The position numbers and the translations under genes were made by a program. Below are positions 11,452 through 15,937 of a stretch of 64,000 nt of DNA, piece after piece (positions within the stretch are counted from its first letter, which is position 1; each line of letters opens with the position of its first letter). The DNA comes from Methylotenera oryzisoli. GTDB lineage: Bacteria > Pseudomonadota > Gammaproteobacteria > Burkholderiales > Methylophilaceae. Under the pieces are notes generated by a model. That model saw only the letters and a list, made by a program, of their open reading frames with translations. It made no database searches and had not been told where the DNA came from. The stretch spans positions 62,001 through 126,000 of the forward strand of contig CAMCVF010000005.1 of assembly GCA_945881735.1 (NCBI GenBank), in the 5' to 3' direction.

Positions 11452-12120
11452 ATGAAATTTAAGGTGAAAGCAGTCATGATTGATCTTGACGGCACCTTGA
11501 TACACACTGCACCTGAAATAGCGCGTGCGGCAAATGCTATGTTGGCGGGCTTAAGCATGCCAACATTAAATACCAAACTGATAGAAAATTATATTGGTGA
11601 AGGCGCCACGGTGCTGATTAAGCGCTGTTTAACAGGCAATTTGGATGACGAACCTGAAGGCGATTTGCTGGCTAGTGCACAAAGACTGTTTTTTGATTAT
11701 TATGCGCAAATCGTCGCCGAAAGTAAGCCTTACCCTCACGTAAAGGAAGCTTTGCAGGCCATTAAACAAACAGGCGTTAAAATGGCTTGTATTACCAATA
11801 AACCAGACGCTTTTACGATGCCTTTATTAGAAAAAAGTGGCTTGTTGCCTTATTTTGATTTAGTGGTGGCGGGTGATAAGTTGCAAAATAAGAAGCCTGA
11901 ACCAGACCAAATTTTTTATGCTTGCGAAAAATTCAACGTTTTAGTCAATGAATCGTTGCTAATTGGTGACTCTAAAACTGATATTACCGCCGCACGAAAT
12001 GCAGGATGCCTCATATTTGCCGTGCCATACGGCTATAATCAGGGGTATAGTATAGGTATTGGCACGGTTGATGCGATAATTAATCATCTTCATGAGTCGG
12101 TGGATTTAATCACAACCTAA
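11452..12120 (+). CDS. gph: phosphoglycolate phosphatase (HAD family)
   Basis: HAD-superfamily hydrolase of 222 residues that dephosphorylates 2-phosphoglycolate. Motif I is MIDLDGTL with nucleophile Asp11 and acid/base Asp13. Motif II is the threonine in CITNKP, with the lysine in KKPEPDQIF, and motif IV is GDSKTDITAA. The small helical cap between motifs I and II fits the Gph class. Position between rpe and trpE is the classic proteobacterial order, which supports gph over other HAD phosphatases. Exact substrate is inferred from context. The ATG at 11452 has no strong ribosome binding site. Confidence 0.9.
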   Translation: MKFKVKAVMIDLDGTLIHTAPEIARAANAMLAGLSMPTLNTKLIENYIGEGATVLIKRCLTGNLDDEPEGDLLASAQRLFFDYYAQIVAESKPYPHVKEALQAIKQTGVKMACITNKPDAFTMPLLEKSGLLPYFDLVVAGDKLQNKKPEPDQIFYACEKFNVLVNESLLIGDSKTDITAARNAGCLIFAVPYGYNQGYSIGIGTVDAIINHLHESVDLITT

Positions 12121-12163
12121 TAATGATCATTAAAATTTATTCAATCTTTTTAAATTATTAAAT

Positions 12164-12220
12164 ATGTATTTCCTAAACAGCAAAGAAGCATGTAGTTGGC
12201 GATGGTGGCGAGGCTTGTAA
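12164..12220 (+). CDS. trpL: candidate trp operon leader peptide
   Basis: An 18-codon open frame, ATG 12164 to TAA 12220, encodes MYFLNSKEACSWRWWRGL. Three of seven consecutive codons near its end are Trp (12197, 12203, 12206). It lies 76 bases before trpE, where a trp attenuation leader peptide is expected. Trp is the rarest amino acid, so W-R-W-W here is unlikely by chance. Downstream is a weak hairpin, AAGTAGA / TCTGCTT, but no T-run was seen, so a standard intrinsic attenuator is not evident. Control could instead act through ribosome stalling and Rho or through trpE translation. The ribosome binding site is poor. Confidence 0.65.
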   Translation: MYFLNSKEACSWRWWRGL

Positions 12221-12296
12221 ACAAAAGTAGATTCATTTTCTGCTTGATACAGCGATTAGTAACTCAAATTAACCCAATTATACTGTTAGGAAATTT

Positions 12297-13778
12297 ATGT
12301 TTAGCACGATTAACTTAGAACAATTCAACGCACTCAGCGTGCAGGGTTTTAACCGCATTCCGCTGGTTTTAGAAACGTTTGCCGATTTAGATACGCCGCT
12401 TTCTTTGTATCTTAAACTGGCCAATCAACCTTTTTCATATTTGTTAGAATCCGTACAAGGCGGCGAACGCTTTGGACGCTACTCCATTATCGGCTTGCCA
12501 GCCAAAACGCGCATTGTGGCGCATGATAATCTTGTACAGGTATTAGAAGGCGCAACGGTAATTGAATCGGCCGACAATATTAACCCCTTAGACTTTGTAA
12601 AAAGCTACCAAGCCCGCTTTAAAACTCCACCCTATGAAGGTTTACCTCGATTTACGGGCGGCTTAGCTGGTTATTTTGGCTATGAAACAGTGCGCTATAT
12701 TGAAAAACGTTTGGCACATAACACCAAGCCAGATGCGATTGAAACACCTGATGTTTTGTTAATGGTGTCTGAAGAACTAGCCGTTATAGATAACTTAAGT
12801 GGCAAGCTATATTTTATTGTGTATACCAATCCAGGTGATGTTAACGCCTATCAAAATGGCTTAAACCGCTTAAACGATTTGGTAAAAATTCTGCGTAAAT
12901 CGGTTGCAGTCCCTGAAGCTGTTGCTGGAAAACCAACTGCTGCGCAATCTGAATTTGGCGAAGATGCCTTTAAGGCCGCGGTTAAGCGCGCCCAGCAATA
13001 TATATTAGATGGTGACATTATGCAGGTGGTGTTAAGCCAGCGCATGTCGCAAGAGTTTAGCGCACCGCCATTATCCTTATATCGCGCATTGCGAAGCCTA
13101 AACCCATCCCCTTATATGTTTTATTATGATATGGGTGACCACCATGTGGTAGGGGCATCACCCGAAATTTTAGTGCGGCTTGAAAACGGCACCGTGACCG
13201 CGCGGCCGATTGCTGGCACGCGCCCACGTGGCAAAACTCGTGAAGAGGATTTAGCCTTATCCGTTGAACTATTAGCCGACCCCAAAGAACGCGCTGAGCA
13301 TGTACAGCTGATGGATTTGGGCCGCAACGATGTGGGTCGTGTTGCTGTTACTGGCTCCGTTAAGGTGACCGACAATATGATGATTGAACGCTATTCGCAT
13401 GTGATGCATATCGTTAGCAATGTAGAAGGCAAACTTAAGCCTGGCATGGATGCAATAGATGTGATTAAAGCCACATTCCCTGCTGGCACCGTTTCTGGTG
13501 CACCAAAAGTGCGTGCCATGGAAATTATTGACGAACTAGAACCCAGCAAACGCGGTATTTACGCAGGTGCTGTAGGTTATTTAGGCTTTGATGGCAATAT
13601 GGACGTGGCAATTGCAATTAGGACCGGTATCATTAAAAATAATCGGCTTTATGTACAAGCGGGTGCTGGAATTGTGGCTGATTCAGTGCCGCAAAGCGAA
13701 TGGATTGAAACGCAAAATAAAGCACGCGCTGTTTTACGTGCAGCAGAGTTGGTGCAAGCAGGGCTAGATATTCAATAA
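12297..13778 (+). CDS. trpE: anthranilate synthase component I
   Basis: Uses ammonia delivered by TrpG to convert chorismate to anthranilate, the first step of tryptophan synthesis. It is 493 residues, a normal length. The N-terminal domain carries the Trp feedback-site type motif [15 protein letters not shown]. The chorismate-binding catalytic domain shows [20 protein letters not shown], the [10 protein letters not shown] loop and the [15 protein letters not shown] motif. AGGAAA stands 6 bases before the ATG. It opens the trpE-trpG-trpD group and is preceded by a Trp-codon-rich leader frame. Confidence 0.97.
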
Positions 13779-13805
13779 CACAACCCGTTTTAGGTTTGAA
13801 ATAAC

Positions 13806-14387
13806 ATGTTACTAATGATTGATAATTATGATTCTTTTACTTACAACCTAGTGCAGTATCTAGGCGAGTTAGGTCAAGACGTCCAAGTGCATCGTAATGA
13901 TGAAATTGATTTAGCTAGCGTCAAAAAGTTTAATCCACGCCATATTGTTATCTCCCCTGGCCCTTGCACACCCAATGAAGCAGGTATTAGCGTGCCTTTG
14001 ATTCACGAATTTGCAGGGAAAATTCCATTGTTAGGTGTTTGTTTGGGGCATCAAAGTATTGGCCAAGCGTTTGGCGCGCGTATTATTAAGGCAAAAACAT
14101 TAATGCACGGTAAAACTTCACTGATTCACCACACCAATACCGGTGTTTTTAAAGATTTACCTAACCCTTACACTGCCACTCGCTACCACTCATTAGTGAT
14201 TGAGCGTGCAACCATTCCTGATTGTTTAGAGATTACCGCATGGACTGAAGACGCGAATGGAGATTTTGGCGAAATCATGGGTGTTAAGCATAAAACCCTT
14301 GCAGTAGAAGGTGTGCAGTTTCATCCTGAATCGGTACTAACAGAACACGGTCATGCCTTGTTAAATAACTTTTTAAAGGCCTATTAA
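13806..14387 (+). CDS. trpG: anthranilate synthase component II (glutamine amidotransferase)
   Basis: Class I glutamine amidotransferase of 193 residues that releases ammonia from glutamine for TrpE. The catalytic Cys79 lies in [12 protein letters not shown], and the His-Glu pair is in [14 protein letters not shown] near the C-terminus. [20 protein letters not shown] is the usual TrpG/PabA start. Many bacteria use the same subunit for PabB; whether it is shared here is unknown. It lies 27 bases after trpE and 5 bases before trpD, in one transcription unit. Confidence 0.96.
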
Positions 14388-15409: not shown

Positions 15410-15937
15410 ATGCTAAATTTTAAAGCTCTAATACTTATCTTGTTAGTAAGTGCTTGCTCACAAAATGAGCAATCTAACGATTTCAGCAACGGCAAACAAT
15501 CGGCCACTACCGTTAAATCGCAAACACAAAACTTGCAGCTAAAGTCGCTAAGTGAGCATGATTTAATTGCCAATCTAGATGAGAACAGTGACGCAGACAC
15601 GCCAAATTTGCGAAGTGCTCATGCACTTTATTTAGCTAAGATTAGTGATGCGCAAGTACAAGATAGTGGCAAAGTGGTTAAAATTCTTGCGGACGATAAT
15701 CGAGGCTCACGCCATCAAAAATTTTTAGTCAAAATCAGTAGCTGGCAAACGCTGTTGTTTGCGCATAATATTGATTTAGCCCCGCGAATTGATGATATTC
15801 AAGTGGGTGATTTTCTGAGTTTTCGCGGGGAATACGTGTACAACCCAAAAGGTGGAGTAATGCATTGGACACATCACGATCCGCAAGGCCGCCATTTTGG
15901 AGGCTGGATTAAGCACAACGGCAATACTTATCAATAA
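15410..15937 (+). CDS. DUF3465 lipoprotein within the trp operon
   Basis: A 175-residue protein with a lipoprotein signal (LILLVSAC, lipidated Cys16). A linker follows, then a DUF3465 domain (about 80-175) with conserved DDNRGSRHQKFLVKI, FAHNIDLAPRI and the His-rich VMHWTHHDPQGRHFGGWI. Family function is not established; the clustered His/Asp residues suggest a metal-binding or hydrolytic fold, but that is inference. It begins directly after the trpD stop and precedes trpC by 45 bases, so it should be cotranscribed with Trp genes although it is exported. An envelope lipoprotein has no evident link to Trp synthesis. Confidence 0.8.
   Translation: MLNFKALILILLVSACSQNEQSNDFSNGKQSATTVKSQTQNLQLKSLSEHDLIANLDENSDADTPNLRSAHALYLAKISDAQVQDSGKVVKILADDNRGSRHQKFLVKISSWQTLLFAHNIDLAPRIDDIQVGDFLSFRGEYVYNPKGGVMHWTHHDPQGRHFGGWIKHNGNTYQ

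Follow-up and report, generated by a model that had tools for sequence, protein, structure and literature searches.

The trp operon is a textbook case of attenuation, which is transcriptional in enterics and rhizobia and protein-based (TRAP) in Bacillus. How trpE is controlled in a Methylotenera-like bacterium in which a Trp-rich leader frame precedes the gene is the question raised by the locus described here. For this analysis, a stretch of 64,000 nucleotides was used, referred to below as the window; the closest trpE found is that of a Methylotenera sp. MAG (92% identity). A sequence-only reading of this DNA had pointed to an 18-codon frame with three Trp codons, 76 nt before trpE, and the letters agree with it: the frame starts at ATG 12164, has 18 sense codons with UGG at 12197, 12203 and 12206, stops at TAA 12218-12220 and is separated by the claimed gap from the trpE ATG at 12297. 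The locus is composed as follows.

Ending at 12120: gph (phosphoglycolate phosphatase), the gene ahead of the leader.
12164 to 12220, plus strand: leader ORF encoding MYFLNSKEACSWRWWRGL*, read from the sequence and recovered as a W-R...W ORF in 83/84 family upstream regions.
12197 to 12208, plus strand: UGG CGA UGG UGG, comprising Trp codons 12, 14 and 15 and the Arg codon CGA at 12200-12202.
12297 to 13778, plus strand: trpE, the controlled gene and the first of trpE-trpG-trpD-(ORF)-trpC, assigned by NCBIfam TIGR00564 above its cut-off and by the ORF list.
13806: trpG.
14393: trpD.
15983: trpC.

Between trpD and trpC lies a 175-aa ORF (15410-15937) with a lipoprotein-like start and without an NCBIfam match at E 1e-10.

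Among 3000 dinucleotide shuffles of the 200-nt stretch before trpE, the rate was 0.0003 for ORFs with three Trp inside five residues and 0.0007 for W-R...W ORFs. To this we added a comparison within the family, for which loci with a trpE relative of 70% identity or more were collected, 80 on named contigs and 15 in genus genomes, several being identical places. Of these 95 upstream regions 85 were unique, and 84 had at least 190 nt. A leader was scored as an ATG ORF of 8-36 codons that contains W-R (or W-H) with a further W after it and ends 25-135 nt before trpE. Results showed that 83 of the 84 unique Methylophilaceae regions carry such a W-R...W leader, vs. 2/1680 shuffled copies. Two rows were left out of the family set, L002, with an upstream stretch of just 40 nt, and L035, with a single Trp; the latter is the exception among the 84 and by eye has a similar ORF with one W-R. 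Shuffles and conservation together rule out a chance ORF as the origin of the leader.

The sequence-only reading had also proposed that a real leader should keep its Trp codons and stop in related trpE upstream regions while the other codons vary, and this is the pattern seen in the 83/84 family regions. The N-terminal part is variable (MYFLENKTTTN-, MKISNIKTNS-, MNQSQVYKMQAS-, MTFPILS- and MIFLNNNFLS- are examples), the C-terminal end reads WRWW-x or WR-x(n)-WR-x, and the last Trp lies 0-3 codons from the stop in 81/83 leaders. The proposal of a Trp-sensing leader peptide is supported by the retention of frame, Trp codons and nearby stop, and the comparison adds that the Arg codon CGA between the Trp codons (12200-12202) is conserved too. 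Judged by these comparisons, the leader before trpE is a real conserved control element.

Similar leaders were found outside the family. At the level of the order, a trpE match was obtained in 226/250 genomes, and 80 regions were hand-picked among the matches listed, from many families and with three from Methylophilaceae. The W-R...W filter was passed by 38 of the 79 sufficiently long regions, vs. a shuffled rate of 0.0032; a looser filter accepted 44/80, including two doubtful cases (L133, L135) and the locus of L077 a second time, as L113. In other orders of the class, trpE was matched in 88/115 genomes, and 10 of 40 regions among the best-ranking matches had such a leader, 36-60 nt before trpE, with ends such as RWRHW*, GWRWWR*, PWRWRA*, YWRW* and PWRWRG*. 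The choice of these ten was made by eye from the peptide and its position, without regard to pairing; one more W-rich frame, 29 nt ahead of trpE in L194, was excluded, again by eye. The motif string TGGCGNTGGTGG occurs 3 times in the genome of the window vs. 8 times for the reversed control, so that the string alone is no pointer to other operons there.

We then consider what lies between leader and trpE and around the leader start, where the following elements were noted.

12109 to 12136: another promoter-like site, with 9/12 matches.
12149 to 12154, plus strand: weak -10-like TTTAAA, a possible promoter near the leader AUG, suggested by A/T-rich columns and TATAAT score.
12225 to 12245, plus strand: local spacer hairpin AAGUAGA/UCUGCUU, present in minimum-energy and centroid folds, with no T run after it.

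The reported absence of a GC-rich terminator with T-run holds, as a simple scan of 11500-14000 gave no terminator-like site on the plus strand; the intrinsic terminator with T run that a classical attenuator of the E. coli trpL type has between leader and trpE was thus not found here. Terminator-like hairpins were detected in 6/83 family and 2/44 order regions, the simple scan giving none in 77/83 and 42/44. In the six family members (L040, a Methylopumilus, and L041, L044, L047, L050 and L051) a GC-rich hairpin with a T-rich tail stands in the spacer, and a transcription terminator may therefore be added in some lineages. Rfam at gathering score returned 0 matches in the window and 0 in 20 related loci, so no curated RNA family covers them at that score; at E up to 5, the single match in 12050-12400 was weak, on the minus strand, and to an unrelated microRNA.

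As for transcription, A/T-rich columns are present near -17 to -10 in 30 representatives, and the TATAAT score is raised there. A first scan for a -10 element was dominated by the AT adjoining the AUG, and the second is no more than suggestive; evidence for a promoter is weak. The leaders are without a Shine-Dalgarno: 4/83 have one at -5 kcal/mol or below, the same as shuffles, and trpE has one in 20/83. By analogy, this would fit a transcript 5′ end near the AUG, and there is possibly little or no 5′ UTR ahead of the leader AUG here, as in S. meliloti, where trpL is reported to be a transcription attenuator with its 5′ end near the leader AUG (PMC7298713).

The sequence-only reading had suggested folding the region for mutually exclusive hairpins. 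Such a pair was not established; instead, a long-range helix is predicted to join the start of the leader to the start of trpE.

12158 to 12180, plus strand: 5′ arm, leader start codon and first codons (2-6), with the anti-Shine-Dalgarno AUUUCCU at 12168-12174; supported by duplex energy and arm swaps.
12283 to 12304, plus strand: 3′ arm, trpE Shine-Dalgarno UAGGAA at 12287-12292, start codon 12297 and codons 2-3; supported by the same tests.

In the predicted duplex AUUUCCU pairs with AGGAAAU, at -19.2 kcal/mol. The helix is present in both the minimum-energy and the centroid fold, with z values of -1.9 and -2.5 and 5 and 6 of 200 shuffles as good. We evaluated it by an arm-swap test, comparing the pairing of leader and trpE arms from one genome with that of arms from different genomes. 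Such swaps hold composition, not relatedness, constant, and dissimilar representatives and separate sets were used with kinship in view: the native mean was -12.37 vs. -8.04 on permutation in the 83 family leaders (best of 5000 permutations -9.22), -18.37 vs. -11.56 (sd 0.66) in 30 dissimilar representatives with longer arms, -25.81 vs. -18.28 (sd 0.62) in the order set (n=40) and -22.55 vs. -15.34 (sd 1.51) in the class set (n=10), with 0/20000 permutations as good in each of the last three. The order set of 40 omits L133 and L135, which are probably frames within the upstream gene, L113, which duplicates L077, and L119, because of its very strong inverted repeat.

Controls behaved differently from the two start regions. 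In the family set, the other five pairings among four regions stayed less than 1 kcal/mol from swaps. For the 30 representatives, pre-leader DNA with the trpE arm was slightly better than swaps (1251/20000 as good), and the leader arm with trpE coding DNA gave 12413/20000; both controls combined gave 11616/20000, and the class set controls 3587/20000 and 4030/20000. At a single locus, L081, the native pairing was equalled by 2/80 foreign trpE arms and 0/80 foreign leader arms. In the order set with n=44, pairing of the leader arm with the spacer likewise exceeded that of swapped arms (-17.53 vs. -15.25, 0/10000), which counts against a simple one-helix picture.

Both portions of the arms contribute. 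In the 30 representatives, the start parts alone match within genomes (-6.65 vs. -5.33, 0/20000), and the coding parts match more strongly (-11.49 vs. -6.18). With a fixed start:start register, a run of at least 7 was present in 62/83 family members, and compensatory letters occur (positions numbered from 0 at each A of ATG): leader nt 4 and trpE -3 are A-T in 37 and T-A in 26 of 83, and leader nt 5 and trpE -4 are T-A in 20, G-C in 17 and A-T in 9 of 83. Pairing of start codon with start codon was rejected as the helix core, permuted arms reaching 13.4/30 vs. 19/30 for native ones; likewise, the register score in the 30 representatives was only modestly above permutation and did not beat some permutations. 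Pairing of the Trp-codon region with the spacer was also discarded, being unspecific in swaps and weak against shuffled spacers (t -2.8, -2.3).

Taken with the three-set arm swaps and the folds, the predicted pairing of the leader region with the trpE ribosome-binding site is the arrangement of a translational attenuator of the ermC/cat type. Of the two kinds of non-classical control that had been proposed, Rho-dependent or translational, it is the translational one that gains from a helix between leader start and trpE ribosome-binding site matched within genomes. We consider that trpE is under a Trp-responsive translational attenuator, with a probability of about 0.72. The basis is comparative, namely a conserved leader ORF, Trp codons beside the stop, and a predicted helix matched within each genome; we infer the Trp-dependent stalling and the opening of the trpE start as the steps that connect them. 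Bacteria with the leader probably turn on Trp synthesis by freeing trpE translation at a Trp-starved stall.

When Trp-tRNA is plentiful, a ribosome would read the leader and exit at its stop, and the RNA would fold so that the Shine-Dalgarno and start codon of trpE are closed. When Trp-tRNA is scarce, ribosomes would stall at the leader UGG codons. A ribosome halted at codon 11/12 has codon 11 in the P site and codon 12 in the A site. Since codon 11 lies 30 nt past the leader start codon, a follower 30 nt behind would fit exactly there and cover the 5′ arm. Once this arm is covered, the trpE start would be open and translated. Lost trpE translation may add Rho-dependent polarity.

By constrained folding of the 83 sequences, the trpE start region of the free RNA had a mean unpaired probability of 0.27, and 0.69 of it was paired with the leader arm. 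A ribosome placed at the first Trp codon gave an unpaired mean of 0.30, and additional cover on the 5′ side gave 0.52; with the ribosome at the stop it was 0.27. A single stalled ribosome thus barely opens the trpE start (0.27 to 0.30), and a queue or unmodelled steric effects would be needed. UGG stands at codons 10-13 in 72/83 family leaders. The position of the first UGG varies from codon 9 to codon 30 in the order set, which counts against this reading of the queue geometry.

The codon before UGG shows a bias of its own. Arg right before Trp is CGA in 44/49 cases in the 83 family leaders, 19/22 in the 30 representatives, 27/42 in 41 order leaders and 10/12 in the 10 class leaders, and the other Arg codons of the same leaders are CGA in 32/126, 10/38, 10/105 and 0/16, respectively. 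Among frames of at least 250 codons, CGA makes up 6/33 R-W pairs and 282/4191 other Arg codons in the family loci, and 0/7 and 52/675 in the window. Fisher tests gave 8.5e-7 (19/22 vs. 6/33), 3.8e-11 (27/42 vs. 10/105) and 5.0e-6 (10/12 vs. 0/16), values in which related leaders are not independent. CGA is reported to be decoded by an inosine tRNA in most bacteria (PMC3711424, PMC10454642), and CGA-CGA pairs to stall yeast ribosomes (PMC6301793). CGA just before UGG may sharpen the stall; our guess is that a P-site CGA worsens the decoding of a hungry UGG. A coupled second ORF from the AUG inside UGGCGAUGG (CGAUGG) was tried as an explanation of CGA and is unsupported, as stops are scattered in all three frames: among 67 regions with UGGCGAUGG, in which one family region is counted twice (L077, L113), the stop is over 12 nt upstream of the trpE start in 40, at -12 to +40 in 18, at +47 in 1 (L150) and beyond the stretch in 8.

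A broader reading is offered tentatively and with more doubt than confidence: trpE leaders in Betaproteobacteria, and in several further lineages of the class, may form one widespread, unnamed type of ribosome-queue translational attenuator, in which a ribosome stalled at CGA-UGG would hold a second one on the leader start, masking the anti-Shine-Dalgarno, and the rare P-site CGA would amplify Trp-codon hunger.

Other explanations share part of this evidence. Classical transcription attenuation, in which a stalled ribosome picks an antiterminator or a terminator hairpin as in the E. coli trp leader, would use a leader peptide of the same kind and could draw on the GC-rich hairpins with T-rich tail in 6/83 family spacers; yet it is improbable here, as the simple scan gave no plus-strand terminator-like site in this locus, in 77/83 family or in 42/44 order regions, the window and 20 related loci gave no Rfam match, and the within-genome pairing engages the trpE ribosome-binding site. 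The same failure to find an intrinsic terminator is what speaks for Rho-dependent attenuation, where leader translation or stalling sets Rho access in the spacer and the helix acts just by stopping trpE translation; untranslated trpE mRNA would, on general knowledge, be accessible to Rho. Alone, this leaves the helix on the trpE start unexplained and is distinctly improbable as the full account, but it may act together with translational attenuation.

Two further readings keep the leader and change what it senses. The leader could be a constitutive translational enhancer, coupling opening trpE at any Trp level and the Trp codons sensing nothing: leader and trpE starts share one helix, so that any leader translation should open trpE. 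We hold this to be very improbable, given that Trp codons stand beside the stop in nearly all leaders, other residues vary, and a Trp biosynthesis gene lies downstream. TnaC is a case of ribosome arrest in response to free tryptophan, and a nascent W-R-W peptide might arrest the ribosome here in a similar manner, rather than through uncharged tRNA. Arg beside Trp is indeed widely kept, as WRW, WRRW and WR-x-WR, but the residues ahead of the motif vary freely, the CGA bias points to selection at the codon or RNA level, and a biosynthetic gene should answer low Trp, not high; arrest by the peptide is thus highly unlikely. Translational attenuation by Trp-tRNA is the reading that we retain.

The leader is of a known type, departs from the classical attenuator in its terminator and looks like a translational attenuator. 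In the translational attenuators of the resistance genes ermC and cat, the ribosome-binding site of the gene is paired with part of the leader and presumably opened by ribosome stalling (see PMC5118997). The leader region here resembles them in its predicted pairing with the downstream site, with two differences: the signal would be Trp-tRNA, not an antibiotic, and the 5′ arm is formed by the start of the leader itself and precedes the stall codons, so that a queued ribosome may be needed. With E. coli trpL and S. meliloti trpLE(G) (for the latter PMC7298713), the locus has in common a short leader ORF upstream of trpE with clustered Trp codons before its stop. Unlike both, it has no T-run terminator, a conserved helix is predicted to close the trpE ribosome-binding site, and Trp is interleaved with Arg (WRWW, WRW, WR-x-WR). 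The LEU element upstream of leuA in Actinobacteria (PMC1262725) is similar in having a candidate leader peptide before an amino-acid gene, and there the predicted partner of the leuA Shine-Dalgarno is a set of Leu codons in the leader. It concerns a different gene, amino acid and phylum; its Leu codon run is itself the arm, with a pseudoknot, whereas here the arm precedes the Trp codons.

Attenuation through overlap with the ribosome-binding site is mentioned in PMC4833913, and predicted leaders of Campylobacter appear in PMC3847290. The Burkholderia cenocepacia small RNA ncS35 was followed as a lead and dropped, since it concerns tryptophan degradation and not trpE (PMC5760752). Among the matches listed in a search of open-access literature, which does not cover older surveys, nothing was found on a Methylophilaceae trpE leader or on translational attenuation of trpE. 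Some of these leaders may already be included in the survey of proteobacterial attenuators by Vitreschak et al. 2004. If true, a conserved translational form of trpE attenuation, in Betaproteobacteria and also outside them, would close a large gap and offer a simple system in which ribosome queues and a rare P-site codon could be tested as regulatory parts.

Two variants of the locus were also seen. In two loci of the same family (L111 and L112, from the 1.3-Mb genomes G169 and G236) trpE is preceded by no Trp leader. By eye, the short gap behind the upstream gene in L111 has a strong hairpin over a mini-ORF with an ATG AAG AAG CTT TAA-like start, as though the attenuator element had shrunk to its helix alone. 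In L119, a very strong inverted repeat (-55.7 kcal/mol) is made up of the leader MNHRDTEAQRTAKSVSWRWRV and the region upstream of trpE, and the repeat coding for RDTEAQR resembles a dispersed one that the attenuator has taken in.
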